In this document: piece after piece, positions 5,191 through 43,790 of the stretch
Position numbering within the stretch: the first letter of the stretch is position 1
Layout of the letters: each line of letters begins with the position of its first letter
Source of the DNA: Roridomyces roridus
Lineage: Eukaryota > Basidiomycota > Agaricomycetes > Agaricales > Mycenaceae
Direction of reading: 5' to 3'
Assembly (NCBI GenBank): GCA_029378245.1
Contig: JARKIF010000027.1
Location: forward strand, 620,001-684,000
Length of the DNA: 64,000 nt
The notes under the pieces: model-generated
What the model saw: only the letters and a program-made list of their open reading frames with translations
Told to the model about the DNA's origin: nothing
Databases searched by the model: none
Program-made: the position numbers and the translations under genes

Positions 5191-5214
5191 ACCTTACAAC
5201 CTTACACGTACATG

Positions 5215-12932: not shown

Positions 12933-12989
12933 TCGTTTTGGTGTAAATTCCAATAATAGTGGTGGCACAATTCAATCCGAGTGTCGGAT

Positions 12990-13894: not shown

Positions 13895-13990
13895 TGTGGC
13901 ATCCGTCCTGCGTCCTCGAATATTGGCGGATTGTGTCTTTCGACAATGCCACCGTCAACGCAATCGCGCGTCATCGTCCTCTTTCGGCGT

Positions 13991-14563: not shown

Positions 14564-14667
14564 TTCGGCGTTCGTGATCGAACTTGATGCTTCCGCGTTT
14601 TCGCGATCGAGGGTGATGACAGTCTTGGGCATAGACCCCTGACAAACACACTCTTTCATTTCTACCC

Positions 14668-16230
14668 ATGAACACCAACTATCTGAACACCCGCGAGAGC
14701 CACGAGCGCACGGACATTGGGGACGGTGGTGGGTACTTCATGCACGCCGGCGAGCTAGACTGACATCTCCTCAGATCTCGACGAGGAGTCGACGTCGTCG
14801 ACGGTGCCTGCGGTGCCTCCGCCCGCCCCGCCCGCCCCGGCTCACCTAGTCGACCCTCTTCCGCTTGTGATAGCCTATACCCCGCACATTGAACAACAAT
14901 TTCGCCGACGCCAATCGCTCGTTGCCCACTGGGCGAGTCGCTCAGGAAACAGACCCCTCACCGGCGAGTCTGCCCCGTTGCGCTACGGTCGTCACGATCG
15001 CGACTCTTGGCCTTTATCCACAGACCTAGACAGCAGCGAGTCTTTCCCGTCGTCGAGCCGGTGGCCTGTCACACCGCCCTCGTCTGACCAGCCCGCCACT
15101 GGCTACTGGGACGTGCCTGTAGCATCCACACGCCGCGAACCATCTTCTTTCCACTACAGTCCGGGGTCCCTCCCCACCGCCATTCTCCACCCCTCGCCCA
15201 GGATTCTCGCATCCCACCGTCGAATCTGTCCCGTCGTCGAGCCGGTGGCCTGTCACACCGCCCTCGTCTGACCAGCCCGCCACTGGCTACTGGGACGCGC
15301 CTGTATCATCCACACGCCACAAACCATCTTCTTTCCACTACAGTCCCTCCCCACCGCCGTTCTCCACCCCTCGCCCAGGATTCTCGCATCCCACCGTCGA
15401 ATCTGTCCCGTCGTCGAGCCGGTGGCCTGTCACACCAGCCACGCCTGGCCAGCTAGACACCGCGTACTTGTACGCGCCTCCTGCCCCACCTGGAGGATCG
15501 TCGACATATCAGCGCTACGATTTCTCACCCGTGCAGCAGTGGATGCCCCCACCTCCTGACCACAACTACTTTCGAATGCCCACGTTGTCCTTCTCGGAAG
15601 GAAACAGTTACTCCGCGGAGACGCTGCCACCGCCAGTCACCTACGATCACGGTCACGCTGGCGCTCCCGTCGTCCATGGGGGGCCAGTCGAGTACACCGA
15701 CGACGCGGCCGTCAAACAGAGTGACCGAATGCACCGCAGGTGCCACAACTGCGGAGCCACGGTACGAGATCGCCACTACTGACGAGTGTTCCTTGACTGA
15801 CCATCGACGACGGCAGGAGCGTCCTGTCTGGCGAAGGAGTAAACTTGTGAAGGGCAAAGTGGTGCGTCCTAAATCTCAATCTTGTCACAAGTATCCACAT
15901 TGATCGGCTTATTAGGTCTGTGATACGTGCGGCAAATATGAGATTGCCTACGGACGCCCGCGCCCAGACGAATTACAGAACCGTGCCGCGGCAAGGCGAG
16001 GTAGAGGAGCTGGACGGGGTCGGCAACGGAATGTCGGGAGGATTGCCGGTGCCGGTGAAGAGGACGACTCTATCGGGAATGGAGGGCAGGTGTATGGGGG
16101 TGGGAGTCCTGGTGTCCCTGTGCCAACAAATTTCGTGGCGGCGGACGAGTCGAGGGACGGGGGCATGCCCAGTGAAGAAGCACTAGAGTCTGAGTCTGAG
16201 GCGACGGATGGAGACGTGGACCCATGGTGA
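14668..16230 (+). CDS. GATA-type zinc finger protein, frame broken in a repeat
   Basis: Exon 1 (14668-14728, MNTNYLNTRESHE) joins across intron 14729-14774 to a Pro/Ser-rich region. A finger follows, split by two introns: CHNCGAT at about 15,741, then ERPVWRRSKLVKGKV, then VCDTCGKYE at about 15,917. The finger reads C-x2-C, W-R-R, C-x2-C, as in GATA factors, with a loop of 18 or 19 residues depending on the second splice site. The tail is acidic and ends at TGA 16,228-16,230, or reads on if GTGAGC there is a donor. In the region upstream of the finger, a 7-bp difference between two tandem units (15,045 and 15,229) puts the frame into a stop at 15,271. The gene is therefore either a recent pseudogene, mis-assembled at the repeat, or spliced in a way I did not find. 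Confidence 0.55.
15045..15420 (+). repeat. ~180-bp tandem repeat inside the GATA gene
   Basis: Units start at TCCCGTCGTCGAGCCGGTGG at 15,045, 15,229 and (partial) 15,406. Unit 1 is 184 bp and unit 2 is 177 bp. The 7-bp difference is an extra GGGGTCC near 15,167. The encoded Ser/Pro-rich unit contains SSSRWPVTPPSSDQPATGYW. Confidence 0.8.
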
Positions 16231-17857
16231 GCAGCAGCTTCTTTCCTTTTGCTCTCGATCCGCGACTGATGATTCGTGGGGATACAGAAATTCCGATTCC
16301 GCTTGCCTTGCGAGGACATTCTACCATACAGCTCCCTGTCGTACTATTCCTATCACTCGTTTCTGTTTGGTCTCTTGTGTTTCAGGCTGGGGTGCCGGCG
16401 GCTCGAGGCAGCGTATACCTGTTGCTACCGAGAGCTGTTGCGTATTCAGGGCAACTATATACATTATAAGTACCAAATTTGCTTGCCTTCGAACCCAACG
16501 CGCACTGAACACGCGTCTCTGGTACTGCCAGGACAAATGGCGGCAGCAGTTTCAAGCAGGGATTGGAGGGACGGGAGCGTCCATGTCCGGGCAGTTGCAC
16601 CTGCAGCGAAAATTGGGACTGGCAAACAGTGGTCTTCGCAGTAGTGCAAGTCTTGCCATCGGGAGGGAGAAGAAGGTTCTCCCGCAGCAAGTGTCCGTCG
16701 TCTTCTGAGCTCTGCCGCGCGTCTCCTTCCCTCTGCTGTTCTAGGCTTTTCCCATGGGCCACCACTCCGGCCTTCTCTCCGTGTTTCTTCCTTCCCCTTG
16801 ACCATTCTGTTACTGGATAACTGAATGTAGCCATTCAGATGAGATTCGTACTACAATGATCCCCGGAATCATTGTGCATCTGCTATGTTCAAATAGGCGA
16901 TGTTCAACGAAGAACTCACTGCTCTGAGCTCACTCTCGACCCTCTACGCTACCTGGCACCCTTCCAGCCGGTTGCGTCGTTATTGAAAATGTCGAGAACG
17001 CCGTGCTGTTCATCCGAACCACCGGGAAAATGTGGAAGTTGTTAACATTGTGCTTCTCTGACGCACAGACATCCCCAGTATTCATGTAAGAGTCGAGCTT
17101 CGAAAAAAAAAAAGCAGATTTGAACGACTTGAAGAAGGGGTTGAAGCCTCGGGCCACAATTTACCAAGCTGCCAGCCGACACGCCTGTAGAGGAAACTCT
17201 GAAACTCACCCCAACGAGGAATATGATAGTAGAAAATATTGCGCCGCGCGTTATGAGGGTGCGAGGCCAAGATACACACGAGGGGTGTCGCATAGTCTCC
17301 GAATGTCAGACTCGGATCAATAAAAAAATATGATAGTCGAATTTTTTTACTGTTGATCTATTATAGAGGCGTCGCCGCGTCGCAGGAGAGAGAGAGAGTA
17401 AATTAAGGCTGAGCGGTCCCCCGATAACTCCCACATTGCTCGCCTATCTGAGCTCATAGTGCAATTCAACCGCTGGTACGAGGTCGACACCCTCCCGTCC
17501 CATTGAGGAACAACAGCCCACCGTAGTCCTACGTACAACCGCCTCATAAGTACGCCTACGGTCATCTACAGACTAAGTACTTACAGGGTGTCTCTTTTGT
17601 CCATAACCATCATTGTCCAATTCTGAGCAAATTCTGAGTGACTGTCTGAGTCGGAAAGGAAACCGTTGAGTCCCAACCGACTCGAGATGTTAAATTATAT
17701 TTCGGGATCATACTCGTTGGATACTCGTGGAGTAAGGACCCGATCGTTGAGGTTTTTTTTTCAGGATAAACTCCTCAGTATCCCAGGTCCCTGTAAAGAG
17801 GAGTTCCAAGTCTATTAATATTATGGGAGGTCCCGTGCGGCGGATCATTCGGTGGAG
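16231..17857. other. No gene recognised
   Basis: 16,231-16,850 is the 3' flank of the GATA gene and may include further spliced or untranslated sequence. On the minus strand, 17,080-17,290 has an exon-like frame (HNARRNIFYYHIPRWG) that I cannot place in a family. An A-run lies at 17,103. Nothing else is supportable. Confidence 0.5.
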
Positions 17858-19162
17858 TACACTGACTCGGAAAAAGTAATGGATCACCAAATCTTGAAAA
17901 TTGGATGCGGTGTCAAGCCCGATGGAGGGACATTGGAAACTGGTTGTGGGGTGTAGTAGGAGCACTAGGAGGGCTATTATCAGCAGGTACAAATCGGAGT
18001 CTGAAATCGGCTTTGTTCGGCTTCGGTGGTGTGTCAAACGCGAACATGTGATCCATTTGTTATTCTGCATTTGGTTGACCCACGCTATTTGGCGTGAAAC
18101 ACTGCAACGACTGGCCCAAATGAGCTAAAATGTTGTACAACTCCTCTTCACTATCCCATCTTCCATCTGTGACCCAAAGCAGTGCACTTCCGGCCTGCTC
18201 AGGGACTGAGAAACATCAAATGAAGAAATCAGTAAAATAATCCTCCCGTGTGCCCAGGACCACTTAACTGTATGGTATAACTTGTCAGTGGGAGCTCATG
18301 GATGCCAGAAAAGCTTAGTTGTCCTCAAAAAGTGGAAATTCAATGTGCAGAGTCTTCCATTCAATTTTCATGGCCAAGCTGAACATTGGGTTGAAAGTTC
18401 AGCACCTGTTCTCAGGTGTCGTGAGTGTCAATGCCATACAGAAACTGACCAGGATGAAGCCTAGGATACTCTACTCCATTAATCCAATCTCCCAGGTACA
18501 GGAACAGAGCTCCATATATGCCCTGACACCAGACAGTGTTGTTTTTCAGCATTGATCTGTGGCCGGATTTTCCCATAGGGTCAACCATCACACCATCGAG
18601 TCTGTGCATCTTCTAGGCATCTCATAGGATCCCAAAGAGCACAACTGATCAATCAAGACCCAGAAATATGGCTTACAGGGGCTGTTGGGAGGCTCCTTGC
18701 TCAGGCTGTATATACAGATCATGCAAAAATCAACATCAGGCAACCACCCACCATGCACGTCTGCATGAGTTGCCTTTCTTACACTCTAAGTGTAATTCAG
18801 TGACCCGCATCTACTGTTTTCAGCCGGATTTTCACACCGTGCAAGGCCCTATTTCAATATCAAGGCCACCAAAGGGCCGTGGCCAAACGGTGGTTGAAGT
18901 TCTTCGACCCTGATAGGGTGTGAGGTGGTCACAGTCACTTTGCCTGTGTAATTGGGGCACTCCTTAGTATTGGGAGAGTTGCCTTATACATGCTTGAGAC
19001 CTCTCATTAAAGACTACTGGTGGGGCCATGGGCACCTTTGCCGGATTAGTGGTCACCACTTCATTGACCAAGGGCTTCACAACCAACCCACTTGAGAGCG
19101 GATTTTTGGGCCCAGAATTGCTCCACAGACATCAAATCATCATCCAATCCAATCTCCAGTTG

Positions 19163-19648
19163 TGTTACATCCGTGCATTTTTGGCATATGTGTTTCAGCT
19201 TTGACACATTAATTCCCATTCAAGGTTTATTCTACTATTTCCCATTCAAGCCTTATTCCACTATATCCCATTCAAGCCTTATTCCACTATTTCCCATTCA
19301 AGCCTTATTCCACTATTTCCCATTCAAGCTTTCCACTAAACCTAATTCTGTCTAAATTCCAATTACACTCAGGTGTTTCACATATACTTCATGTTTCCAA
19401 ATGTAGATACATTCCCATGGCCTTTGTATATAAACCTAGGTTCACTTTCATGTATCTTCAGTTGATAATTAACGTTGCTTGGTATTCCTCACCTTGCGCT
19501 GTCTGACATCCTCCCTGCTCCCTCTCCCGTTGACCAGGGTAGTCTCACTCACCCTAAACCTCTGTGGTGTAGTGATCTCTGTTGTTCCGGTCACCAATCC
19601 CTCTTGGTATCCTTCCGGTTCCATTTCCCGCCGGCTCAGCATTTAACA
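19163..19648 (+). mobile_element. Solo LTR (486 bp)
   Basis: It begins TGTTACATCC and ends AGCATTTAACA, with inverted TGTTA/TAACA termini. It is flanked by a perfect 5-bp direct repeat AGTTG at 19158-19162 and 19649-19653. A TATA-like TATATAAA lies at 19427-19434, as expected for an LTR promoter. There is no internal retrotransposon, so it is a solo LTR left by recombination. The orientation is inferred from the TATA box. Confidence 0.8.
19213..19335 (+). repeat. 25-bp tandem repeat in the LTR
   Basis: About five copies of TTCCCATTCAAGCCTTATTC followed by CACTA lie in the 5' part of the solo LTR, with one or two changes between units. Confidence 0.85.
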
Positions 19649-19954
19649 AGTTGCACCTGCCCCATTGAGTCCAGGTAAAAGATCAAACACATGGATTTGA
19701 CAGAAACCAGATTTTAAAATGGATCACTTTCATTTTTGTGATCGCTCTGCTACAGCAAGGAGAGGGTCAGGCAACTCAATATTTTACGGGTATATACTAG
19801 ACCCTGTAAGCTTCCTTCGGAGACCTTAACATTGCCCAGAAGTGGCGTGGCTGTGAAGCAATGCATCAAACAATTTCGAACCACGCGTGATCCATTACTT
19901 TTTCCGAGTCAGTGTATTTAGTGTGACTCCGACTCGAGGCACACACCCACCTCA

Positions 19955-21391
19955 ATGCCTCCAACGAGTGGGATTCGCTCTCTTCCCAACGAAACTCTGT
20001 TGAATATCTTTCTGTGTGCTATTGCCGGCGTCTTCCCCACACTCCTAGCACATCCCATCCCGAATTTGTCGCTACAGACAGAGTTGGAGCGACTTGCAAA
20101 CGCCCCGCTACTGTTGCTCTCTCGGGTGTGCTCACAATGGCACACGATCGCGCTTGGGACTCCTACGTTGTGGGCCCACCTCGAGATGCACGGAATCACA
20201 GAGGGCGCTCTGGAACAGACAATCGCGCTTTTAAAAACTCATCTCGAACGCAGCCGGGAAGCGCCACTCTGGATCCGGTTCAGAGGAGAAACTTATGACC
20301 GCCATCCTCCTCATCCCCGCATATTCGATCTACTAGCAGAGTACTCGCACCGATGGGAGACCGTGCATTTCGTATGCTCCTTGAAAGGCGTGGACACATC
20401 GGCCTTGCGAGGCCGATTGCCTCGCCTCAAGGATTTCGAGGTCAATGGCGAAGTTCGGCTCAAACACTGCAAACCTGTTACGCCCTTCGATTTTCTCGCG
20501 GTGGCTCCGTGCTTGCGCAGGATATTGGTTGCTGCGCCACTGCTGCACGTGGACACCTTTGGAACCATTCGCAGGCAAATCAACGATCTTTCGTGCATAG
20601 TGACACCGCTTCACAACGAACTCCACACCTTATTACGATTGCTGCCCGAACTGTCCGATGGCGCCGGATTCTACTTCATATTTGACCTCGACCCCTCGAT
20701 TTTGCCACAAAATTGGGACCCTGCTCTGTGCCTCCCTTTGATCACTGCCGCCTCCCTGGACACCCTGGGACTCAGAGCGGTTGTATGTGGCCCACCGGAT
20801 CCACACCACGTGGCCTCGGTATTCACACAGGTATTCTCGAGCCTCACTCTACCCAACTTGACGAAAGTACTTCTGGGATACGATGGGCATCCCAAGGTCG
20901 CGTTGGGTTGGCCGCCCGCCCAACACCTGGCATTCCTCGGTCTATCCGAGCGTTCTGCCTTCGGACGTTGTCTGAAAACACTGCGAGTGTTCCAGGTGAA
21001 TATCGCGGAGAACCAGTTGATGGAGATCCTCTCTGTTCTGGAGGCCCTCGAGAGCCTTGAAATCGGAGATCAGGGGATGAACAACGACAGTTTTCTGTGC
21101 GCCATGACACGGGAGGATTCAGGCCATCAAGTGGCGCCCCGACTCGCCCATCTGATGTGCCATTCGAGGCTTGCTTTCGCCCCCGAACTCTTCTCAGATT
21201 TCGTCTTGTCCAGGTTGACGTATGGGCCTCCCGCCTCAAAGTTTCAGATCTCTGTACACCCCGCTCCGAGCAGTGACCCAGACATATTCCGCCAATCGCC
21301 GGTGCACACGCTGTTGCGCCAACTCGCGGTTGAACATTGTCGTTTTCGTTATTTGTCAGGGGAGACATGGGTGTCTTACGCTAAATTGTAA
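19955..21391 (+). CDS. F-box/LRR-like protein (intact, 478 aa)
   Basis: A single uninterrupted frame with an N-terminal F-box-like segment (SGIRSLPNETLLNIFL, then SRVCSQWHTIALGTPTLW). A long Leu-rich C-terminal region follows, with blocks such as LRGRLPRLKDFEV, SLETLEIGD-like repeats and LTLPNLTKVLL, typical of Agaricomycete F-box proteins. Such proteins usually act as substrate adaptors of SCF ubiquitin ligases; the substrate is unknown. Relatives here are the pseudogenes at 10,733-12,932 and 30,836-31,811 and the diverged intact gene at 42,031-43,476. It forms the outer part of the left arm of an inverted duplication. The long antisense frame at 20,844-21,368 is a shadow. Confidence 0.85.
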   Translation: MPPTSGIRSLPNETLLNIFLCAIAGVFPTLLAHPIPNLSLQTELERLANAPLLLLSRVCSQWHTIALGTPTLWAHLEMHGITEGALEQTIALLKTHLERSREAPLWIRFRGETYDRHPPHPRIFDLLAEYSHRWETVHFVCSLKGVDTSALRGRLPRLKDFEVNGEVRLKHCKPVTPFDFLAVAPCLRRILVAAPLLHVDTFGTIRRQINDLSCIVTPLHNELHTLLRLLPELSDGAGFYFIFDLDPSILPQNWDPALCLPLITAASLDTLGLRAVVCGPPDPHHVASVFTQVFSSLTLPNLTKVLLGYDGHPKVALGWPPAQHLAFLGLSERSAFGRCLKTLRVFQVNIAENQLMEILSVLEALESLEIGDQGMNNDSFLCAMTREDSGHQVAPRLAHLMCHSRLAFAPELFSDFVLSRLTYGPPASKFQISVHPAPSSDPDIFRQSPVHTLLRQLAVEHCRFRYLSGETWVSYAKL

Positions 21392-21702
21392 TACTATCTG
21401 CTAATAATTCAACCCGAGTGGAATGCACGGAGTTTGTACGATTGCTCCCGAAGTTTCAGCCCAATTGCATGGCTACGACAAGAAAGAAGCTCGATTCTAG
21501 CACGGCTACATGATAAATTACCACCGAAATCTGCTCTCCATAAAACTCGCTCGACGTTTGGATTTGATTCGAATGGAGGCCGGGCGTGCTCGCCATTGGC
21601 GGGGAACGATAACAATCCCTGAGATATTGGAGTGTTCGCGATGGGATGACCACTGTGCCCATGCATGAGAAAGGATACATCGGAAAATAAATATGAACGA
21701 AC

Positions 21703-22002
21703 CTAGATGTGTGGAGCCTTCGCAGGTGCAGCGATGGTGCCGCCGAGTCCAAATTGCGAGGACAAGGCACCAAAGGCGGACGCGTAGTCCTTCTTCGCTG
21801 GAGCCGCGCTCTGTGGTGGCACATATGCGGGAGTGGTGGTCATCGACGGCTTCTTCTTGGAAGGGAGGCAAGGCCCCGATCCACCGAGGCCGTACGACGA
21901 TTGGAGAGCCGCGAAAGCAGCTTGGTAGTCTTTCGACTGAGAGGATGTGGATGAGGTGGACGCGAGGAGCGACGCGGTGGAGGAGTTGGGAGAAGTAGAC
22001 AT
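21703..22002 (-). CDS. Small Ser/Thr-rich protein with a duplicated ~20-aa motif
   Basis: A 99-aa single-exon protein starting MSTSPNSS. The Ser/Thr-rich head is followed by two copies of a motif, DYQAAFAALQSSYGLGG and DYASAFGALSSQFGLGG, separated by a Lys/Pro linker; it ends APHI. There is no signal peptide or membrane segment. A second copy at 30,236-30,535 has the same length with eight amino-acid differences, all in the linker or second half. That favours the Met at 22,002 over the upstream Met at 22,053. It is divergently transcribed from the Cys-rich gene 540 bp away, and the pair was duplicated as a unit. Function unknown. Confidence 0.75.
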   Translation of the reverse strand: MSTSPNSSTASLLASTSSTSSQSKDYQAAFAALQSSYGLGGSGPCLPSKKKPSMTTTPAYVPPQSAAPAKKDYASAFGALSSQFGLGGTIAAPAKAPHI

Positions 22003-22542
22003 TGTTTTAGTAGTACTAGTAGAGGACTGGTGGCTCGGAGGAGGCTCGGTCATAGATTCGCCGTCTGAGGAGCGCCGGTTTTATGGATGTCGGTCATGGC
22101 TGCGGCTGCGGTGAGGATGGATACGCAGTTCAGGAACGAGTCCAGGGTGAGAGTCTCTTGACCGCTGCGCACTGCGCTGGGAGCCGACCGACTGGGCAGT
22201 CGGGATGGTCTGATGTCATCGGTCAGAGTCGGGGCTTGAAGACCAGAAGCTGCAGAGAGTTTTGACACCTCAATGTGAGGAGCTTGGGAAACGCAGGAGC
22301 TGAGAGCTGGGTATTGAGGAAACGATGATGAAGGGCAAGAGAGAGAAATTTGACATCACTGATGGCATCCGACCTCGCTCCCTTCGCCATGACCACTTGC
22401 TTCAAAGCTCTTCGTTTTCCCTGGCAACTCATAGTTATTTTTTGCACCGCAGTGTACAATGCGCAACGTCTCATTCGGAGCGGCTGACTTGAACAAGCGT
22501 GCCGAAAGTGGCTGACATCGTACACCCTTCTCTCCTCGCACC

Positions 22543-23649
22543 ATGCTATTCACCCTCCTCCTCCCTGCCCTTACTCTATCCACCCTCGTCTCTGCCTCCG
22601 TATCAGTACAAGTCGGCCACTGCTCCTCGGACAACAACCGCCTCGACCCCGCCTCCAAGATATTCCTATCCGACTGCTCCGACCAAACCTTCTGCTCCGG
22701 ACGAGACCCTACCACCTCCATCTGCGTCCCCCGCCAATGCAGACGGGATGAATTTCCATTTGGGATCGCAGCTGGCGAGGACGTACCACCACTTTGCCTG
22801 CGCGGCTCTACGTTCTGTCCGGATGAAGGAAGTGGGTGTCGGGCTCTCGTGCCTGCTGGTAATGCGTGTGAGTTGAATCGGGACGAGCAGTGTGAGGCGC
22901 CGCAGGATTGGAGGGACCTTGTGAGTGAGCAGAATTTCAATGGGTCAATTTGCTTGCGTCAGCTTTGCATGTGCGTGTTTTTCTTTCTTTCCTTGACTTG
23001 AATTCGATAATTAATGATGTCCATAGGTACGCGAATGCGACTCTCGGCGACAGATGCGTCACAGACAACACCACGTACATCGACGTCGATTTTGACGGGG
23101 AGCAGATCAACAGCGCCGTCACCCGGGATAACTGCCAGTCGCCCCAGCTGTACTGCAACCCAACCGACCTGGTCTGCGAGCCTACGTTGCCGTTGAACGC
23201 GCCGTGTCAAGGCGACAGACAATGCTCCTCGGTGAGTCTGGACTCTACTATCGTTCCTCGACTTATCTTGCTTTAGTTGACTTGCAGCGCTGGCAAGTGC
23301 GTCAATCCGCCCGAGACGCCACTCCGCATCGCACCCTGGCAGTCTGCGCTGACGGCCGCAGCTACACTCGGAGGTTCGTTCTTCCTTTCGCTCCCCTCGA
23401 GTCCTGTGACTGATTGGGTCAAATAGCGATGCTAGCCACCTGCATTCTGCTCAACCTGCTGCACAAACGGCATCGTCTAGACCGGACGCGGGAGCTGCGC
23501 GACTATTACTACGAGCAAACTAGGTCGGTTTCAATTGATCGTCTTGAGGATGACGACTGATTCCATTCCACAGTCTGCGCCGTTCCATTATCGCCTTGCA
23601 TACAGCCGCGGCGGACAAGTACGTGGATGAAAAGACATCTCGGTATTAG
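22543..23649 (+). CDS. Secreted Cys-rich single-pass membrane protein, copy 1
   Basis: Five exons (22543-22970, 23027-23231, 23277-23373, 23427-23523, 23574-23649) sum to 903 nt, or 300 aa. A signal peptide (MLFTLLLPALTLSTLVSA) leads a Cys-rich ectodomain of about 200 residues with motifs such as CSDQTFCSG, CVPRQC, CRALVPAGNAC, CNPTDLVCE and CSAGKC. The pattern resembles the Dickkopf-like Cys-rich proteins of fungi, a tentative assignment. A hydrophobic stretch (LTAAATLGAMLATCILLNLL) and a basic/tyrosine tail (HKRHRL, DYYYEQ) follow, giving type I topology at the surface or in the secretory path. Copy 2 at 28,664-29,758 keeps every splice site. Confidence 0.85.
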
Positions 23650-23732
23650 ATGCTACATAACAAGGTACATTAGTGCGAATTCGAATGTCCGGACGTGCGG
23701 TAATAATGTTATCATGAAGAGGATGATGCGTC

Positions 23733-28495: not shown

Positions 28496-28663
28496 AGCGG
28501 TAGTGGAATGAATTTGTAATGTACCGAAATCCGATTTGTATCTTCTCTGTAATTGAATGCAAGCAGCTCGGAAGATGGATTCGATGGAAGATAGCAAGAA
28601 ACGATCCTCGCATTGAGAAATACCAGACATTCGCACTAATGTATGTACTTTGTCATGTAGCAT

Positions 28664-29758
28664 CTAATACGGAGATGTCTTTTCGTCCACGGACTTGTCC
28701 GCTGCGGCTGTATGCAAGGCGATGATGGAACGGCGCAGACTGTAGAGCTCGAGTCAATCGTCATCCTCAACACACTCAATTGAAACGAACCTAGTTTGAT
28801 CGTAGTAATAGTCGCGCAGCTCCCGCGTCCGGTCCAGACGATGCCGTTTGTCCAGGAGGTTGAGCAGAATGCAAGTGGTCAGCATCGCTATTTTACGCAG
28901 TCAGCTAACGGACTCGAGGGGAGCGAAAGGAAGAACAAACCTCCGAGTATGGCTGCAGCCGTCAGCGCGGATTGCCAGGGTGCGATGCGGAGTGGCGTCT
29001 CGGGTGGATTGGCGCACTTGCCAGCGGCGCAAGTCAACTACCCAAGATGAGTCGGTAGACAATTGAAAGACACTCCACTCACCGAGGAACATTGTCTGTC
29101 GCCCCGACAAGGCGCGTTCAATGGCAACGTCGGCTCGCAGACCAGGTCGGTTGGGTTGCAGTACAGCTGGGGCGACTGGCAGTTATCCCGGGTGACGGCG
29201 CTGCTGATCTGTTCCCCGCCAAAATCGACGTCGATGTACGTGGTGTTGTCCGTGACGCATCTGTCGCCGAGGGTCGCATTCGCGTACCTGTGGATATTAA
29301 ATAAATCAAAGTCAAGGAAAGAGAAACACGCACATGCAAAGCTGGCGCAAGCAAATCGACCCATTGAAATTCTGCTCACTCGCAAGATCTCTCCAATCCG
29401 GCGGCGCCCCACACTGTTCATCCCGATTCAACTCACACGCACTACCAGCAGGGACGAGAGTCCGACACCCACTTCCGTCGTCCGGACAAAATGGGCCGCG
29501 CTGGCAAAGCGGTGGTACGTCCTCGCCGGCTGCGATCCCAAATGGAAATTCATCGCGTCTGCATTGACGGGGGACGCAGATGGAGGTGGTAGGGTCTCGC
29601 CCGGAGCAGAAGGTTTGGTCGGAGCAGTCGGATACGAAGTTCTTGGAGGCGGGGTCGAGGCGGTTGTTGTCCGAGGAGCAGTGGCCGACTTGTACTGATA
29701 CGGAGGCAGAGACGAGGGTGGATAGAGTAAGGACAGGGAGGAGGAGGGTGAATAGCAT
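28664..29758 (-). CDS. Secreted Cys-rich single-pass membrane protein, copy 2
   Basis: Inverted paralogue of 22,543-23,649 with the same five-exon structure: signal peptide MLFTLLLPVLTLSTLVSA, Cys-rich ectodomain, one hydrophobic segment and a short tail ending KTSPY. Cysteines and all splice sites are retained. Differences are scattered substitutions (for example QRGPFCPDD for RGSTFCPDE, with one residue fewer). I see no stop or frameshift, so both copies appear functional. Expected at the cell surface or in the secretory pathway; ligand or role unknown. Confidence 0.8.
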
Positions 29759-30235
29759 GGTGCGAGGAGAGAAGGGTGTACGATGTCAGCCACTTTCGCG
29801 ACGCTTGTTCAAGTCAGCCGCTCCGAATGAGACGTTGCGCATTGTACACCGCGGCGCAAGAACTATGAGTTGCCAGGGAAAAGGAAGGGCTTTGAAGCAA
29901 AAAGGCACTTTGGCGCAACCTGGTCATGGCGAAGGGAAAGAGGTCGTTGATGCAATCAGTGATGTTAAATCTCTCTCTCTTGCCCTTCATCATCGTTTCC
30001 TCAATACTCAGCTCTCAGCTCCGGCGTTTCCCAAAAGCTCTGTCCACACATCGAGGCGTCAATAAGCTCTGCAGCTTCTGGTCTTCAAGCCCCGGCTCTG
30101 ACCGATGACATCACACCAAGTATCCCGACTGCGCAGTCGGTCGGCTGCCAGCGCAGCGCGCAGCGGTCAAGAGAACGACGAATTTATAACCAAGGCCTCC
30201 TCCTCTTCCGAGCCATCAGTCCTACTGCCAAGACA

Positions 30236-30535
30236 ATGTCTACTTCACCCAACTCTTCCACCGCGTCGCTCCTCGCGTCTACTTCATCCACATCCTCCCA
30301 GTCGAAAGACTATCAAGCTGCTTTCGCGGCTCTGCAATCGTCGTACGGCCTCGGCGGATCGGCACCTTGCATGCCTTCCAAGAAGAAGCCGTCGATGACC
30401 ACGAATCCGGCATATGCTCCTCCCAAGACCGTAGCTCCAGCGAAGAAGGACTACGCGTCTGCCTTCGGTACCTTGTCCTCGCAATTTGGACTCGGCGGCA
30501 CCATCGCTGCACCTGCGAAGGCTCCACACATCTAG
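30236..30535 (+). CDS. Small Ser/Thr-rich protein, copy 2
   Basis: A 99-aa copy of the protein at 21,703-22,002, with the first 40 residues identical and eight substitutions later (such as GSAPCMPS for GSGPCLPS). Both DY-x-(A/S)AF repeats are preserved. The purifying pattern suggests both copies are used. It is divergent to the Cys-rich copy 2, mirroring the left arm. Confidence 0.75.
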   Translation: MSTSPNSSTASLLASTSSTSSQSKDYQAAFAALQSSYGLGGSAPCMPSKKKPSMTTNPAYAPPKTVAPAKKDYASAFGTLSSQFGLGGTIAAPAKAPHI

Positions 30536-30835
30536 GTTCGTTCATATTTATTTTCCGACGTAGCTTTTCTCATATGTTCGCACAGTGGTCATACAATCGC
30601 GAACACTCGAACATCTCGGGAACTGCTATCGTTCCCCACCAAATGGCGAGCACGCCCGGCCTCCATTCGAATCCAATCCAAACGTCGAGCGAGTTTTATG
30701 GAGAGCAGATTTCGGTGGTAATTTATCATGTAGCCGTGCTAGAATCGAGCTTCTTTCTTGTACAGCTGGAATATCAGGAGCTATCGTACAAACTCTGTGC
30801 ATTCGACACTCGGGTTGAATTATTAGCAGATAGTA

Positions 30836-31811
30836 TTACAATTTAGCGTAAGACACCCATGTCTCCCCTGACAAATAACGAAAACGACGATGTTCAACCG
30901 CGAGCTGGCGCAACAGCGTGTGCACCGTCGATTGGCGAACAATACCTGGGTCCCTGCTCGGAGCAGGGTGCAGAGAGACCTGAAACTCTGAAGCGGGTGG
31001 CCCATGCGTCAACCTGGACAAGACGAAATCGGAGAAGAGTTCGGGGGCGAAAGCAAGCCTCGAATGACAAATCAGATGGGCCAGTCGGGGCGCCACTTGA
31101 TGGCCTGAATCCTCCCGTGTCATGGCGCGCAGAAAACTGTCGTTGTTCATCCCCTGATCTCCGATTTCAAGGCTCTCGAGCACCTCGAGAACAGAGAGGA
31201 TCTCCATCAACTGGTTCTCCGCGATATTCACCTGGGACACTCGCAGTGTTTTCAGACAACGTCCGAAGGCAGAACGCTCGGATAGACCGAGGAATGCCAA
31301 GTGTTGGGCCGGCGGCCAACCCAACGCGACCTTGGGATACCCATCGTATCCCAGAAGTACTGTCGCCAAGTTGGGTAGAGTGAGGCTCGAGAATACCTGG
31401 GTGAATACCGAGGCCACGTGGTGTGGATCCGGTGGGCCAGATACAGCCGCTCTGAGCCCCAGAGTTTCCTGGGAGGCGGCAGTGATCAAAGGGAGGGATA
31501 GCGCAGGGTCCCAATTGTGTGGCAAAATCGAGGGGTCGAGGTCAATTATAAACTTAAAGTAGAATTCGGCGCCGTCGGACAGTTCGGGCAGCAATCGTAA
31601 TAGGGTGTGGAGTTCGTTGTGAAGCGGTGTCACTAAACACGAAAGATCGTTGATTTACCTGCGAATGGTGCCAAAGGTGTCCACGTGCAGCAGCGGCGCA
31701 GCAACCAATATCCTGCGCAAGCACGGAGCCACCGCGAGAAAATCGAAGGGTGGAACAGGTTTGCGGTGGTAGAGGCGAACTTCGCCGTTGACCTCGAAAT
31801 CCTTGAGACGA
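30836..31811 (-). pseudogene. Truncated F-box copy in the right arm
   Basis: Matches the C-terminal two thirds of the intact gene at 19,955-21,391, from LKDFEVNGEVRL to the C-terminus VSYAKL. Everything upstream, including the F-box, is replaced by the palindrome at 31,804. There is also an in-frame TAA at 31,657-31,655 where the intact copy has a Gln codon, and a 6-nt insertion (YFKFIIDLD for YFIFDLD). It cannot act as an F-box adaptor. Confidence 0.85.
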
Positions 31812-31953
31812 GAAGATGTCTCAGACAATGGCGTCTGGCATTCGGCCAGCCGGAGAGACGAACGCAAGGTACGGATCAATGTGGTCCGTCAGTCGGTCGC
31901 GTTTTGCAGTGAGGTTGTCGACCAGGAGCTGCAACCGAGCGATTTCTTCCGCC
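31810..31953 (-). pseudogene. F-box N-terminal relic in the left arm
   Basis: Read on the minus strand, the phrases EEIARLQLLVDNLTAKRDRL, then TDHIDPYLAFVSPAGRMPDT match the start of another common Agaricomycete F-box subfamily (coiled-coil, then LPDDIVREIF). Stops lie before it and inside the F-box core (TIV-stop-DIF). An identical inverted copy lies at 38,515-38,658. Confidence 0.6.
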
Positions 31954-32059
31954 AATCATGCAGCCTCGGCCCTCGAGCGACGACGAGCTCCGTCGTTGTG
32001 GTTCCGGTCAAGTCGATCAGTTGTCACGTGGGCCTGCCAATCTTGCATCTTCCCTCATA

Positions 32060-32205
32060 CAACTGGACAGTTCTCGGCGTCAGTCTTCGTCGACGGCGTC
32101 ACTCTCTCGGACGGTTGGTTGACGGGATTCAGTGCCCAGGCAAGCCCATGGTGCCGAGGATCCCCTCCGATGGTCCCCCAAAGGTTTACGCGGGTGGTTG
32201 AATTG
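32060..32205 (+). pseudogene. DUF7918 relic in the left arm
   Basis: TGQFSASVFVDGVTLSD matches the DUF7918 N-terminus. Shortly after, in another frame, DGIQCPGKPMVPR matches the paralogue motif DGIRCGGKHMAPR. The intervening exon is missing, so this is a deleted and frameshifted fragment. The mirror copy is at 38,263-38,408. Confidence 0.6.
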
Positions 32206-33345
32206 TGCCCTCATACGTCCAAGGGAAATTATAATTGAATCCGCACGACGATCTGACCGACTACTCACTGCCTCGAGCGTCTCAATCCAATGACTAGCGC
32301 CCGGCAGCTGAGCGCTTGTTTGCACTTGAGGGGAGTGAGTCGCGCTTCGCGCGGATGTGTCGCACATCAGAGCTGTGTACGTCGCGTCTGTTCAAGCCCG
32401 GGCCCACGCTTGGGGACCCGGAATATATTGATGCTCGATTTGCACGGCACATCCGCCAAGTCTCGAACGGCACGGATGCTTGTACATATATCTCACGTTG
32501 CGAGTCCCCGATCTTGACCACAGATCTAGATCTTCAAACTGTATTTCCAAATTGGGATGTCGTGAACGGTGTACCGTGACAGTTAGGCGCTTACTGTATT
32601 TAGAACTGACAGAGCTCCGGAGTCCTCACGGCATTCCAAGCTTATAATATACTTACACCGCCTAAGAGCTGTCACTTCCACCTCCGCTCCTTCACAGCGC
32701 CGCTCTCTGACGACTACAAGATCCTCCCCAAGGACATCTCCCTCAGGCTAATTTCTTGCTCTGGCGCCCTTCTCAAGTCCGACCTGTTCTCGTCCCGATT
32801 ACCCAATCTTTCATGCCCGTGCCTTGTTGGATGGGGCGGATACTGCTGGACTCCTGTAGGTTGACGATGTTACTCTACTGGCTCGCAGACTGACTTGGCC
32901 GCCGCCCAACTTTGACTGCCAAGTTCCAACTGACTCGACACTAGCGCCAATCCGTTCTTGTCGACAAGCCAAGAGGCGGAAAGAAAAACTGCCCAATTTC
33001 AAGGCTCTGAAAAGGGACCGACCGACGAAATAGGGCAGGAAGTTCCCAGGCTGGTTCGGGTTGATGGGATCAGTGATCTCCGACCCTCAGAACAACTGCT
33101 GGCATTGCTTCATCAACCCCCTCGAGTATTGAATTTTCCGCTGTTCAACTACAACTGATCCGTTGATGGACAGACCGTTGCTGTCAACTCGCACCCGAAA
33201 AGAGCAAACAGGCCGGCAATGGCCTTCCCCATCGGAACCGCCGTGGTAGCACTTCTGGAAGCTGGAATCGGTCACTTAACGATGCCCCGGATCTTCCAGG
33301 TCTCCACACAACCCTCACCACTGAAAAAAAGAAGAGAATGAGGCT

Positions 33346-33535
33346 CTAGGGTGTGGTTTTTAATTCCTGGAGGATTAAAAACAGGTTTATAAACTTGGTT
33401 TACAAAGCGGGGGTGATGGCATCGATGCCTCCCCTTGTGAAAAGCTCTTGCTTTTCCAGCGTGATGAGCTAGGGTGTGGTTTTTAATTCCTGGAGGATTA
33501 AAAACAGGTTTATAAACTTGGTTTACAAACCGGGC
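33346..33535. repeat. Pair of 66-bp direct repeats in the arm
   Basis: Two copies (33346-33411 and 33470-33535) begin CTAGGGTGTGGTTTTTAATT and end near GGTTTACAAA(G/C)CGGG. They contain the palindrome GTTTATAAAC, which recurs again at about 33,568. The mirror copies are at 36,933-37,122. Confidence 0.85.
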
Positions 33536-34862
33536 TGTTCATAAACTGGTTCACAAATTGGGCTGTTTATAAACTGGTTTGTAAACCAAGAGTTTCGTGA
33601 AACCCCTTGTCGCACTGCCTTAGAAAGCGCAAAAACAGCTTCTAGGATAAATTTTTCTCTCCTGGCCTCTCCCCACTCCCTCCTGCATGTCTTCTGTGGA
33701 CATTGGACCTTCATTTTGTACGAAATCAGCTCTCAATATCCATTGGCCCTCTCCGCATCAACGTCAGACGGTGATCGATCAGGCCCTGATCAAGCTCGGT
33801 TTGGACTGCTGCAAGATGTCCACACAGAGTATTTTGGTCCCTCTCTCTAATTTCCTCTCAGACTTGGACAGAATGCAGGTGAATAGATGGTGAAAATCAT
33901 TGATTTCCTCAAACACATTATGCAAGCACATTCAAAAACTGATGAAAAACCAGGTTTATCAATGCCGGTTAATGAACCGGCTCACAAACCAGAGTCAAAA
34001 ATGACACCCTACCGGCTTCACGGTCACTGTCACAAGAAAACCTCCTCGGTGCATTGCCCCGGCCATCTGTCAACCGGCTGCAGCTGCTTCCATTACCGGG
34101 GTTCTCTACAGCTGTTTGACAAGAGTCTTGTTCACTTCTGAAACATCTGTTCTGGTGTCGCTCAGAGCTGTCTCCGTGCTTCCTCTCTCTCTCAAATCTC
34201 CCTTGACAATCGTGGTAGTGCTACTCGAGCACACTCCCGCTTCCCATCTCCCCTTCGGCGGATTGCGAGAATGTTCCAATTTCCACAGCCCCCTGTTCAG
34301 TTATGGAGTGCCTGCTGCGCCGTTACTCACCGATTTCTCACCACCTCCGCCGTCTCTCAAACTTCTCCTTGACAATCGTGGAATGCTCCTAATGGCTCCC
34401 GGATACCGGCTTACTCGCGTTGTAGAAAAGCGAATGCAGCTGTCCTCCAATCCACCAAGCCCGAACCCAAGGACTAGAAAACCCTTCTTGATCTCTGCAT
34501 CCCTTGTCGCCGTTTATCTTGTGTATATACAAATTTGCCAATCCAATGGCAACATCATCCACTGCTTCTGGAAGCTTCGATCCTCCTCGTTCAACAGCCT
34601 AGCAATCGGGATCATAATGTCTATTTGTAAGTTCAAGTTGTAGGTTGTATTTCTTCCCAGCCATTTGTATGGCCCTGCTTCGCAGTCTGACTGTGTGCTG
34701 GCTCTTGAACCATCGCTTGAAAAAATCGGCTTCAGTGCGGCACATCCATCGGATCACGAGATGTCTCTTGGAATGAGTAACCTCTATTCTGGTCTTTCTT
34801 CACGTAAAACACACCTTTACACTTAGGTTTTCTACCACTCTCGACCCGACTGTCTCCAAGTT

Positions 34863-35850
34863 ATGCCCAAATCATCGAGCGAACTATACCGCAGGCTGGC
34901 GTCCCAAAAGCACGGGATACCCCAATTCACGCCTGAACCGAACGACAACCTGCCGGTGGAGTACAAGAAAGTCGGCGTCAGCATCGGGGACATTGGGATA
35001 TGGTCCGACGACTCTTTTGATGTCCTCTTCAATACATGCTGGCCGGCAGAGCATTCCATTAATGGAGTCCACGGCGTTCCCAAGGATTTCATACCTTTCC
35101 CTCTCAACACTCGCGACATCTCGAGGCGGCCCTATCACTCTGCTGGCTCCGTTATTGCGAGTGCCAAGGTGGCGGAGGTTAACTTGGCCGTTGGGGCGTC
35201 GTCAACCGTTTCCCCGTGCGTGCCCTTATCACTGTTCACTGAAACGCACACCAACGTACTGCAGCTTTGTTCCAGCCACTCTGGGGAGCAGCCTGAGCTT
35301 CACAATCCAGTCAAAGCAGGGTGCAATCCTGGTCTTGCCTGAGGGCGCAACTCGCGAGAATCTTCTCCCAGTTGAAGCCTTTCGGGCACACGTCAGGAAG
35401 TCTTCCGCGCAGTGGTACAATTTCGCACGGGACCGCCTACCAATGTCCGGTTCGCTCTTCGTCGTAACAGGTTGCGATAAAACAGCGTCGTGGGGCATTG
35501 CGACCGTGTCGGAAACGCGCGGAACCATTGGATTTTCTCTCAACTTCACGGTGGCAGGCGTTGCGGAAGGAACATTGGTGCCGCGGTACGAGTGGCGGGA
35601 CTTTGGTTCGGCCACGGTTCGCACTTCACCTCAGTATGGGCTACCTCGGATGGAGAATCAGTGTGTTTTCATTCGTGGATTTTTCGTACCCCGAGAGATA
35701 CTTCTGCTGACTTACATGATGGATAAGTTTTTATCCCGTGGGTTGCAGCGATATCTCAAGGAGCGAAGAGATACGAAAGATGGAGAGTCCCATATGAAGA
35801 AAACCTCAAAGCAAGGCGGGCCAGAGCTTGTGCGTGTTAAACCACTTTGA
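34863..35850 (+). CDS. Hypothetical Agaricomycete protein in the palindrome spacer
   Basis: Two exons (34863-35215, 35265-35850) give 312 aa. It is clearly related to the N-terminal half of the protein at 50,022-52,341. Shared motifs include LPVEYKKVGVSIGDIG (against LPAEYGYRGVSIGDVG), FDVLFNTCWPAEHSIN (against FDFFFNIYLPADHPIN), the GAILVLPEGA/GAVLALPLGS strand and GSLFVVTGCDKTASWGIA/GSLYLITGWEKARAWGIA. No domain with known function is recognised. The C-terminus is basic and the long acidic tail of the relative is absent. This is the only gene in the single-copy spacer between the palindrome arms. Confidence 0.75.
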
Positions 35851-36087
35851 ATGTAAATGTTATTCATGACATGCGCACCTTACAGACTGGGTGATAATGC
35901 ATGTTGCAGTCAGGACAATATCTCCTACTCGGACCCAATCCTTCTACATATGTAACGTCTTTTTGAAATGTGTTGCCGACCAAGAGGTCAGATTATTGAG
36001 AGGGCGATCCGCTAAAACAAATGAAATCAACGAACGAAATCCAACAAGTCTTCTGTGCGATAACGGGGGATTGATCTTGCTCCGTAG

Positions 36088-38664
36088 CACGATTGTCAAG
36101 GAGAAGTTTGAGAGACGGCGGAGGTGGTGAGAAATCGGTGAGTAACGGCGCAGCAGGCACTCCATAACTGAACAGGGGGCTGTGGAAATTGGAACATTCT
36201 CGCAATCCGCCGAAGGGGAGATGGGAAGCGGGAGTGTGCTCGAGTAGCACTACCACGATTGTCAAGGGAGATTTGAGAGAGAGAGGAAGCACGGAGACAG
36301 CTCTGAGCGACACCAGAACAGATGTTTCAGAAGTGAACAAGACTCTTGTCAAACAGCTGTAGAGAACCCCGGTAATGGAAGCAGCTGCAGCCGGTTGACA
36401 GATGGCCGGGGCAATGCACCGAGGAGGTTTTCTTGTGACAGTGACCGTGAAGCCGGTAGGGTGTCATTTTTGACTCTGGTTTGTGAGCCGGTTCATTAAC
36501 CGGCATTGATAAACCTGGTTTTTCATCAGTTTTTGAATGTGCTTGCATAATGTGTTTGAGGAAATCAATGATTTTCACCATCTATTCACCTGCATTCTGT
36601 CCAAGTCTGAGAGGAAATTAGAGAGAGGGACCAAAATACTCTGTGTGGACATCTTGCAGCAGTCCAAACCGAGCTTGATCAGGGCCTGATCGATCACCGT
36701 CTGACGTTGATGCGGAGAGGGCCAATGGATATTGAGAGCTGATTTCGTACAAAATGAAGGTCCAATGTCCACAGAAGACATGCAGGAGGGAGTGGGGAGA
36801 GGCCAGGAGAGAAAAATTTATCCTAGAAGCTGTTTTTGCGCTTTCTAAGGCAGTGCGACAAGGGGTTTCACGAAACTCTTGGTTTACAAACCAGTTTATA
36901 AACAGCCCAATTTGTGAACCAGTTTATGAACAGCCCGGTTTGTAAACCAAGTTTATAAACCTGTTTTTAATCCTCCAGGAATTAAAAACCACACCCTAGC
37001 TCATCACGCTGGAAAAGCAAGAGCTTTTCACAAGGGGAGGCATCGATGCCATCACCCCCGCTTTGTAAACCAAGTTTATAAACCTGTTTTTAATCCTCCA
37101 GGAATTAAAAACCACACCCTAGAGCCTCATTCTCTTCTTTTTTTCAGTGGTGAGGGTTGTGTGGAGACCTGGAAGATCCGGGGCATCGTTAAGTGACCGA
37201 TTCCAGCTTCCAGAAGTGCTACCACGGCGGTTCCGATGGGGAAGGCCATTGCCGGCCTGTTTGCTCTTTTCGGGTGCGAGTTGACAGCAACGGTCTGTCC
37301 ATCAACGGATCAGTTGTAGTTGAACAGCGGAAAATTCAATACTCGAGGGGGTTGATGAAGCAATGCCAGCAGTTGTTCTGAGGGTCGGAGATCACTGATC
37401 CCATCAACCCGAACCAGCCTGGGAACTTCCTGCCCTATTTCGTCGGTCGGTCCCTTTTCAGAGCCTTGAAATTGGGCAGTTTTTCTTTCCGCCTCTTGGC
37501 TTGTCGACAAGAACGGATTGGCGCTAGTGTCGAGTCAGTTGGAACTTGGCAGTCAAAGTTGGGCGGCGGCCAAGTCAGTCTGCGAGCCAGTAGAGTAACA
37601 TCGTCAACCTACAGGAGTCCAGCAGTATCCGCCCCATCCAACAAGGCACGGGCATGAAAGATTGGGTAATCGGGACGAGAACAGGTCGGACTTGAGAAGG
37701 GCGCCAGAGCAAGAAATTAGCCTGAGGGAGATGTCCTTGGGGAGGATCTTGTAGTCGTCAGAGAGCGGCGCTGTGAAGGAGCGGAGGTGGAAGTGACAGC
37801 TCTTAGGCGGTGTAAGTATATTATAAGCTTGGAATGCCGTGAGGACTCCGGAGCTCTGTCAGTTCTAAATACAGTAAGCGCCTAACTGTCACGGTACACC
37901 GTTCACGACATCCCAATTTGGAAATACAGTTTGAAGATCTAGATCTGTGGTCAAGATCGGGGACTCGCAACGTGAGATATATGTACAAGCATCCGTGCCG
38001 TTCGAGACTTGGCGGATGTGCCGTGCAAATCGAGCATCAATATATTCCGGGTCCCCAAGCGTGGGCCCGGGCTTGAACAGACGCGACGTACACAGCTCTG
38101 ATGTGCGACACATCCGCGCGAAGCGCGACTCACTCCCCTCAAGTGCAAACAAGCGCTCAGCTGCTGGGCGCTAGTCATTGGATTGAGACGCTCGAGGCAG
38201 TGAGTAGTCGGTCAGATCGTCGTGCGGATTCAATTATAATTTCCCTTGGACGTATGAGGGCACAATTCAACCACCCGCGTAAACCTTTGGGGGACCATCG
38301 GAGGGGATCCTCGGCACCATGGGCTTGCCTGGGCACTGAATCCCGTCAACCAACCGTCCGAGAGAGTGACGCCGTCGACGAAGACTGACGCCGAGAACTG
38401 TCCAGTTGTATGAGGGAAGATGCAAGATTGGCAGGCCCACGTGACAACTGATCGACTTGACCGGAACCACAACGACGGAGCTCGTCGTCGCTCGAGGGCC
38501 GAGGCTGCATGATTGGCGGAAGAAATCGCTCGGTTGCAGCTCCTGGTCGACAACCTCACTGCAAAACGCGACCGACTGACGGACCACATTGATCCGTACC
38601 TTGCGTTCGTCTCTCCGGCTGGCCGAATGCCAGACACCATTGTCTGAGACATCTTCTCGTCTCA
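36088..38664. repeat. Right arm of the near-perfect inverted repeat
   Basis: Reverse complement of 31,804-34,380. The inner boundary is at CACGATTGTC (36,088) and the outer boundary at TCGTCTCA (38,664). Its outer end falls inside a gene resembling RCE1. It carries mirror copies of the relics and repeats described in the left arm. Confidence 0.95.
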
Positions 38665-39111
38665 CCACCCAGCTAACGAAAGTCTCCACGAAATGATACT
38701 TGAAAGAGACTTCCTTTGTCCTGGAAGTGCCGATGCGAGGTAGTGTCCGTATATGGGACCAATGAAGAGCAAGGGCGTCTGCAGACAAGACAGGACGCTA
38801 GGAGACCATTGAACGCTTAGTAGCCGCATAGTCATCGTGATCGGGTCTTGTGTCTTCATTCTGAGCTTCAATGTAGGAAAATACGCACCTCCGCAGCTAA
38901 GCACACACGCGATCGTCACCGCCGTCAAGTGCGCTCGGATCACAGCAGGATCGTCCCTGCCGACAGGCTGGAACTTGAGTCGCGCATCGTACGCGCTGAA
39001 GCGGATTCGGGCGTTCTTTGCCACGTATAAAGAGCCGACGTAGGAGATTGAGAGGCCGAAAGCGAGGAGGTGGGCTGTGTGCATGGAGAGCGGCGGATTG
39101 GAGGAGGCCAT
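38665..39111 (-). pseudogene. RCE1: 5' part of a CAAX protease (RCE1-like), truncated
   Basis: From ATG at 39,111 the minus strand reads HLLAFGLSISYVGSLYVAKN, then RDDPAVIRAHLTAV, and after a further segment TPLLFIGPIYGHYLASALPG and FKYHFVETFVSW. This matches the N-terminal membrane region of fungal RCE1, the ER membrane protease that removes -aaX from prenylated proteins. The conserved continuation (RNYLVGPITEE, with the catalytic Glu pair) is missing because the palindrome arm begins right after W-V. It is therefore an inactive fragment. Family assignment is from motif memory and moderately sure. Confidence 0.6.
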
Positions 39112-39370
39112 GCCAAGCGCGTTCAGAGACAGAGATACAGCACAAGAAACTTGACCGAGACGAGAGCAAGACGAGTCGGAGGGACGATGATCGTTCTGGA
39201 CAAAAGAGACTGATGGGTCCGAACAAAAACTCATTGATTGCCGGCATTCACGGTCATGTGAGACACGCGGTCGATCACGTCGCCATGTACGCTTTTGCAA
39301 GGACTTGGGTTCTGTTTAAATATCCGACCCGCACGTGCAGCCTGAGTGGATCATTGGTACAAGTATCGTG

Positions 39371-40694
39371 CTACTCGGCTGCGACATGCCGCTCATTGTC
39401 ATGCATTGTGGCAATAATCAAACCGAGATATAATGTTCCTAATGCAAATATCGAACTTGTGATAACTTGCGGGCGGATTGCTTTCACCAAAAATGGACCG
39501 GTTTTAATTGTGGTATTTGGCTCGCTGGTATCAGCGGCTGAGCGCCAAAGAAACGCCAGAACCAGGAGGGCAAAGTAGAACACGCCCCTGTAGTTTCCTC
39601 TGAGTCAACAATAAAACACTGATGAGTAGGACTGGACCTCTCACCATATTATCCACGCAAGGGGCATAGACAACGCAATCCACGGGTTCCAAAAACCATT
39701 TGATGTCCCATGTAGCACCAATTCAAACCTCTCTCGTTCGCAGATGACTCGTCCGAATCTGATCGAGAACAGCAAAGCGAAGAGGGCACCAAAGAAGAGG
39801 CAGACCATCGAAAGTTGTACAAGGATGCGGACCACAGGGTCATATGAGGCGCCAGGCAGTTGCAGTATAGTGAACAGCAGGCTATGATAGGGGGTGGTTA
39901 GTACATGGTCGCTCATTCTCAAATATGACGCAGAGAAACTGACCCGAAGAGTATGCCTGCGGCCGTTCCCATCTGATTCCATTCAGCTATCCAGCGCTGA
40001 TACGTTTGGTAGGCTTTTTCAGTATTCCCAGGCAATATTTCAACGTGCCGCATATCCTGGCGATATCGAACCGGAAGGCCGAGCAACGTGAACATGTATA
40101 TGAGCCGAATGGCCCTGAAAAAAGTGGAGACACTGTGCGTGCAGCTGAGGAAAGTGTTATGAGACAGCGACAAATTAACATAAGTACAAATACTCACATG
40201 CGAAAGGTAGAAACCGAAAGAGTTTCCAGAGCATCCGGGGTAGCGTAGCCAACAGGAATACTGGGGACCGGTGGCATATTGGACGGAGGATAGCGAAAAG
40301 TATCGGTTTGCGTCAGTGATTCTGGGATCGATGGGCTGTTCGTAAAAGAGTCAGTTTGCGACATCTGTACTGGTTGGCTGCTCTTTGAAAGGCTGTTCAC
40401 AAAGGGTTGCTGCGCTGTACGGCTGCTCCCTGCAACATATTTACACTCTACACCTTTCCTCTCGCAGCGTGCGCAGGGATGATCCACCGATTCAGTAAGG
40501 CACTATAAAACTCAGTGGAGAAATGAGGTCTGTAACGAAAGCGGTTGACCTTGATCTTGCGCATCCGACAATTGGTGCATGCCACAGGAATCCGGCGTTG
40601 TATCAGCCTTTCGAGTGATTCCTGCTTATTGTTTTGTGGTCAAAACCCCAGAGGAATCTTGTGACTATGAGACGGTTACCGCTGTGTCTGCCAT
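39371..40694 (-). CDS. Zn2Cys6 domain fused to a multi-pass membrane region
   Basis: Six exons (40694-40680, 40624-40550, 40502-40198, 40114-39944, 39881-39645, 39587-39371) sum to 1,020 nt, or 339 aa. Residues ~20-50 form a fungal binuclear zinc cluster: ACTNCRMRKIK then CLTESVDHPCARCERKG and VECKY, with all six Cys present. A Ser/Thr/Pro linker follows. Four hydrophobic segments then appear: IRLIYMFTLLGLPV; AAGILFGLLFTILQL; LVQLSMVCLFFGALFALLF; and a C-terminal pair around LAWIIWGVFYFALLVLAFLW and IFALGTLYLGLIIA. Zn2Cys6 proteins normally bind DNA in the nucleus; membrane anchoring suggests regulated release or a non-DNA role. The RCE1 fragment lies 260 bp beyond its 3' end. Confidence 0.8.
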
Positions 40695-43619: not shown

Positions 43620-43790
43620 CTTTGGGAGAGGGAAGAAAGCACCGACCCATAAGTAATTCCGAAATCCCAACCAACTGCAGAAAGTCTCCACGAAATGATA
43701 CTTGAAAAAGTAGTTCCTTTGTCCTGGGAGCATCGATGCGAGGTAGCCACTGTATATCGGACCAATGAAGAGCAAGGAACGAGAACGCAC
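43620..43790 (-). pseudogene. RCE1-like fragment 2
   Basis: The minus strand reads LLFIGPIYSGYLASMLPGQ and then FKYHFVETFCSWLGFRNYL, equivalent to the segment near 38,670-38,780, and extends a little further into the conserved RNYL. It is then interrupted. No start or catalytic part is present. Confidence 0.55.

Follow-up and report, generated by a model that had tools for sequence, protein, structure and literature searches.

A spaced palindrome at two loci of the Roridomyces roridus nuclear genome, with arms that probably evolve in concert

In the mushroom Roridomyces roridus, a 64,000-nucleotide stretch of nuclear DNA (C190:620001-684000, called the window here) contains two mirrored arms of 2577 nt around a spacer that holds a gene, and the question raised by this locus is how such arms come to be almost free of differences. 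An original prediction, made from the letters of the window, had offered a very recent duplication, continuing gene conversion or an assembly fold-back as answers. The arms were compared base by base, and the 90.8-Mb assembly of this one genome (501 contigs) was searched for related sequences. The answer that we regard as probable is that an old spaced palindrome occurs at two loci and that gene conversion between its arms makes them evolve in concert.

The inverted repeat was detected at the coordinates originally given for it, with 1707 nt separating the arms:

31804-34380, plus strand: left arm of the palindrome, from inverted-repeat detection and base comparison
34381-36087, no strand: spacer, single copy except for its first ~550 bp, which match contig C101 at 83-88%
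36088-38664, minus strand: right arm, the reverse complement of the left arm with two mismatches, from inverted-repeat detection and base comparison

The computed comparison of the arms gave two mismatches in 2577 positions, exactly those first noticed by reading (31832/38636 and 32303/38165), and all other positions are identical. An identity of 2575/2577 is not attributable to chance. The long near-identical arms enclose a spacer that is unique in the genome besides its relative on C101, which is described below. The outermost 20 bp of each arm (31804-31823 and 38645-38664) form a small hairpin at the flank junctions, with TGAGAC and GTCTCA separated by 8 nt.

A near-perfect palindrome is also typical of an assembly artefact. 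In a fold-back or mis-join, one arm would be real and its mirror copy would come from chimeric reads or consensus building, and only the assembly sequence was examined here. The 25,337-bp contig C286, which from its sequence looks like the other haplotype, matches the window at 1-2522 and 5221-22732. It stops at that last position, short of the palindrome, and so gives no independent copy of it. However, the window arms differ at two places, and they enclose a single-copy spacer between two different flanks whose homologues lie close together elsewhere. The C101 locus is built in the same way, but its outer arms are 5-8% substituted and split by insertions, which a fold-back would not produce. 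We therefore consider the artefact proposed in the original prediction very unlikely.

Other comparisons in and around the window serve as yardsticks for the arm identity. An adjoining inverted repeat of ~3.2 kb (20430-23680 versus 28629-31803), which bears F-box-type genes and has an unrepeated middle of ~4.9 kb, is only 88-90% identical, with 245 mismatches in 3,122 ungapped columns, so uniformity is not the default for inverted repeats here. Between C286 and the window there are 46 mismatches over the 17,494 ungapped columns of 5221-22732 and 3 over the 2522 of 1-2522, and the two arm mismatches are below the first of these rates (expected 6.8, p 0.035). C286 does not contain window 2523-5220. 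A search of the genome with the right flank for an allele found no near-identical second copy.

The second palindrome on contig C101

A search with the left arm returned 50 matches in the genome. Besides a block resembling a miniature inverted-repeat transposable element (MITE) and one 316-bp repeat, which has 71% matches at four further places, the sole other locus matching the arms is C101:639-642 kb, where several parts of the arm occur in mirror order. Five loci at which pieces of the arm matched (C158, two on C57, C334 and C368) were rejected, the matching part not being palindromic there. The C101 palindrome has arms of 1021 bp (639170-640190 versus 640891-641911) with three mismatches and a spacer of 700 bp. 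Its homology with the window crosses from the arm into the spacer (window 34012-34617 at 83% and 34623-34933 at 88%). The inner turning point is common to both loci within 1 bp: in the window the mirror relation ends with ...GACAATCGTG, and C101 continues it for one more base. The gene start in the C101 spacer is the same as in the window spacer, and the annotated open reading frame (ORF) there, P0065, departs from the gene family after 24 codons.

A global alignment of whole arms between the window and C101 is meaningless beyond the collinear blocks; local alignments and alignments of two blocks were used. These are the two blocks alignable in all four arms, and they cover 688 of the 2577 arm bases, the remaining bases being absent or too diverged at C101, with weak matches at window 31928-32111. 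Within the window the arms are identical in both blocks (369/369 and 319/319), as are the arms within C101 (385/385 and 346/346). Between the loci, identity is 319/363 (88%) and 233/313 (74%), with identical counts for every pairing of left and right arms. Without homogenisation, arms of different loci would be about as close to each other as the arms of one locus; instead, the arms group by locus, which argues for concerted evolution.

The C101 homologue, the common turning point and the identities within versus between loci indicate that the palindrome is older than the divergence between its arms. The very recent duplication considered at first is not supported as a full explanation, since the loci have diverged by 12-26% and the mirror structure seems to predate that divergence. 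Continuing gene conversion gained support from the same structure with a different sequence at C101 and from the fall of arm identity at an insertion there, which is described in the next section.

The original prediction had described the arms as containing only decayed gene relics; the feature identified in them here is the MITE-like block, which gives a further sign of exchange between the arms:

33347-34011, plus strand: MITE-like block of the left arm, with ends TAGGGTGT...ACACCCTA
36457-37121, minus strand: mirror copy of the block in the right arm, from the arm comparison

This block has 39 matches in the genome, its own two places counted in, and a relative at C368 has ATCAAGTC on both sides. 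A motif search of both C101 arms found its terminal motifs in neither, and the C101 match restarts at window 34012, directly after the block. Since the block is in both window arms and its end motifs are in neither C101 arm, its gain in the window or its loss at C101 would have had to pass from arm to arm.

The arms could also be kept alike by selection for a hairpin RNA or another structure, for example if a long hairpin transcript makes small RNAs. The genome has 44 exon-level matches to the Piwi domain, the MITE-like block has relatives elsewhere, and selection on structure has been proposed for C. elegans (PMC1803023). However, the C101 palindrome persists although it lacks this block, and conversion alone accounts for the pattern. 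We consider this kind of selection unlikely as the explanation, the two processes being compatible.

Arm identity on the two sides of an insertion

An insertion of ~2.05 kb, which ends just before 639170, splits the left arm of the C101 palindrome. It has inverted ends (TAGGGCTGGGCACCG...) and an imperfect 8-bp duplication (GACTGAAG/GACTGAAT), and the right arm has the uninterrupted site. The insertion looks like a hAT element. Mirror homology resumes beyond it, where 636832-637115 pairs with 641903-642198 and then, past another 26 kb flanked by TTTCTT, 610293-610580 pairs with 642193-642478.

On the spacer side of the insertion, 639180-640187 is identical to its mirror copy at all positions (1008/1008); of the three mismatches between the 1021-bp arms, two fall at the duplicated target and one at the inner edge. 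Beyond the insertion, 263/278 and 257/278 aligned bases are identical (15 and 21 substitutions) in addition to indels, or 88% each with gaps included. The identities on the two sides differ with Fisher p values of 8e-11 and 6e-15, the sites being treated as independent. Perfect identity up to the insertion and 5-8% substitutions beyond it form the pattern that would be expected of conversion tracts blocked by heterology. Evidence that homogenisation is confined to uninterrupted homology comes from C101 only. Of the 11 matches to the outer right part of the C101 palindrome (397 bp), one is the part itself, two are the left-arm parts (at 88% and 92%) and eight lie at C190 or C286 (71-92% over 36-180 bp), four of them in the window palindrome; by this list, the left-arm parts are its closest relatives.

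From these comparisons we infer conversion between the arms, which is an ordinary process and the best supported one here. A break or stalled fork in one arm would be mended with the mirror arm as template, either within one molecule or from the sister chromatid, and the conversion tracts would end at the limits of homology or at a large insertion. The insertion in one C101 arm thus serves as a natural control: a single genome is enough to show how old the structure is and how far conversion extends. As it marks where homogenisation stops, conversion and inversion rates become measurable in a fungus.

Several points weigh against arm-to-arm conversion in an old palindrome, in addition to the limited coverage of the four-arm comparison. 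Conversion is deduced from one genome and two loci and not from direct observation. On its left side, the MITE-like block lacks a clean empty site at C101, and the window and C101 do not agree at the right-hand edge of the spacer. Set against the second C286 yardstick (three in 2522), two arm mismatches are no clear deficit. By base composition, the arms show no sign of enrichment in guanine and cytosine (GC) or of GC-biased conversion, in a comparison without a proper neutral control (GC fraction 0.517 in the window arm, 0.506 in the spacer and 0.530 in the whole window; 0.536 in the inner arm and 0.571 and 0.567 in the outer arm parts at C101). In addition, a tandem unit of the arm lies at the inner edge of C101 (640842-640961, repeated at 641009-641128 at 92%), so a recurrent break point is possible there.

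Such a preferred break point would suit two independent recent inverted duplications, in which each locus had one arm and the spacer and was mirrored lately, and the near-perfect arms at both loci would fit as well. However, the C101 mirror homology past the insertion, at the reduced identities given above, indicates that this palindrome is not recent, and the turning base of both loci is the same within 1 bp. Two separate events are therefore very unlikely in our judgement.

The spacer gene and the flanks

The spacer bears a gene, as originally predicted, and the gene is intact, with two exons joined across a 49-nt intron:

34863-35215, plus strand: exon 1 of the spacer gene, from the gene model (312-aa protein; annotated as partial protein P0001)
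35265-35850, plus strand: exon 2 of the spacer gene, from the gene model, including the stop codon (predicted gasdermin-like fold)

The gene belongs to a large family, found mainly in Mycenaceae and mostly in Mycena, that has no Pfam family; none of 30 aligned members (30/30) gave a Pfam match at E 0.1. Genome-wide, the family has 99 exon-level matches, with many copies on C190, C101, C1 and C30. The spacer protein is predicted to have a gasdermin-like fold, that of the gasdermin N-domain. No gasdermin was among the PDB profile matches of the family, and no sequence-profile link was found to the fungal gasdermin-like proteins RCD-1 and HET-Q1 (PMC12881547, PMC10989679). A protease gene is reported to lie near ~80% of fungal gasdermin genes, and S8, CHAT or caspase-like proteases are common, though not obligatory, neighbours. 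The contig of the spacer gene differs in this respect, as none of the genome matches to these families in a six-frame search lies on C190 (0/23 for S8, 0/38 for CHAT and 0/11 for C14, the match counts being lower bounds). On another contig, one member of the spacer-gene family has a caspase-like (Peptidase_C14) match at a distance of ~1.8 kb (C24:509982-513043), a protease neighbour of the type reported for fungal gasdermins.

A predicted gasdermin fold would tie the spacer-gene family to fungal cell death. The palindrome might then be a cassette around a gasdermin-type self/non-self gene, in which conversion keeps the arms capable of recombining and crossovers flip the spacer. Nuclei or strains would then differ in the state of the cell-death gene, switched either by the flip or by a hairpin RNA of the arms. 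We give hardly any credence to such an inversion-based allorecognition switch. The palindrome probably does not depend on the gene for its persistence, as the C101 copy persists with a gene that breaks off after 24 codons.

The sequences outside the arms bear on how the palindrome reached this locus:

30839-31810, minus strand: left flank, an F-box-type gene truncated at the palindrome edge, with codons 1-156 missing, from paralogue comparison
38665-40101, no strand: right flank, with homology to sequence upstream of F-box genes (window 43667-43777 and C190:708081-709590)

The match between the left-flank gene and its 478-aa paralogue, which is F-box-like by Pfam, begins at residue 157 (position 31810), and that between the right flank and the upstream side of F-box genes begins at 38665-38667. 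The two outer flanks are different sequences, and their homologues lie ~570 bp apart in another F-box locus on C190, without a palindrome; the palindrome therefore seems to have taken the place of ~0.6 kb on the 5' side of such a gene. At the left edge, ~8-10 bp (TGAGACGA) resemble the F-box gene at that place. The unit may have arrived by end joining at such a short microhomology, with loss of the replaced segment. An F-box relic was also sought within the arms by aligning F-box proteins to them, and no convincing match was found.

Both arm ends abut flank DNA, and the unit has the appearance of an insertion in an F-box gene. A transposon was therefore considered, one with a host gene between very long terminal inverted repeats. 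No target-site duplication was seen in the flanking letters at 31803/31804 and 38664/38665, and ~570 bp of the target was seemingly lost. Multiple copies were not found either, as beyond the MITE-like block and the 316-bp repeat there is one other, diverged locus only. The spacer gene is of host type, with no transposase by homology. A transposon of this kind is highly improbable.

Known palindromes and further features of the window

The original prediction had called the persistence of such a palindrome unusual. This is fair for instability of the type seen in yeast, but lasting palindromes are known in C. elegans (PMC1803023), primates (PMC3723533) and willow (PMC7023750). For long intergenic inverted repeats of Caenorhabditis, whose structure is kept better than their sequence, the authors propose gene conversion and argue also for selection on structure (PMC1803023). 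They resemble the mushroom palindromes in having long near-identical arms (one of 2,207 bp at 99.7%), a sequence that differs between homologous copies and a mirror structure that is kept. The Caenorhabditis comparison was between species and paralogous gene pairs, with short spacers (PMC1803023), whereas here it is between two loci of one fungal genome; the mushroom has in addition a 1.7-kb spacer holding a gene and an insertion that marks where homogenisation stops.

The palindromes of the primate Y and X chromosomes also have an arm-to-arm identity above 99%, which is ascribed to conversion (PMC3723533). The mushroom arms differ from them in being kilobases long, without a known sex-chromosomal location, and in that conversion is deduced and no GC bias is seen. 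The palindromes of the willow W chromosome likewise have mirrored arms that convert, but there the region, on a sex chromosome, extends over 200 kb and includes several genes (PMC7023750). In a fungal nuclear genome, a large palindrome has been described on chromosome 14 of Zymoseptoria tritici, which is much larger than those described here and lies in an accessory-chromosome insertion flanked by retroelement remnants (PMC3681731). A literature search on palindromes and gene conversion in fungi, with most subscription papers outside its scope, found no title that reports such a case from a mushroom. Palindromes kept uniform by conversion have mostly been discussed for sex chromosomes, and the two presented here are small ones in the nuclear genome of a mushroom.

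Elsewhere in the window, a search for transfer RNA genes found none, and ten further ORFs gave no Pfam match. An ORF of 582 aa at 53644-55392 matches DUF2828 and DUF7788, and it has a 71% DNA match within C286:1603-3506.

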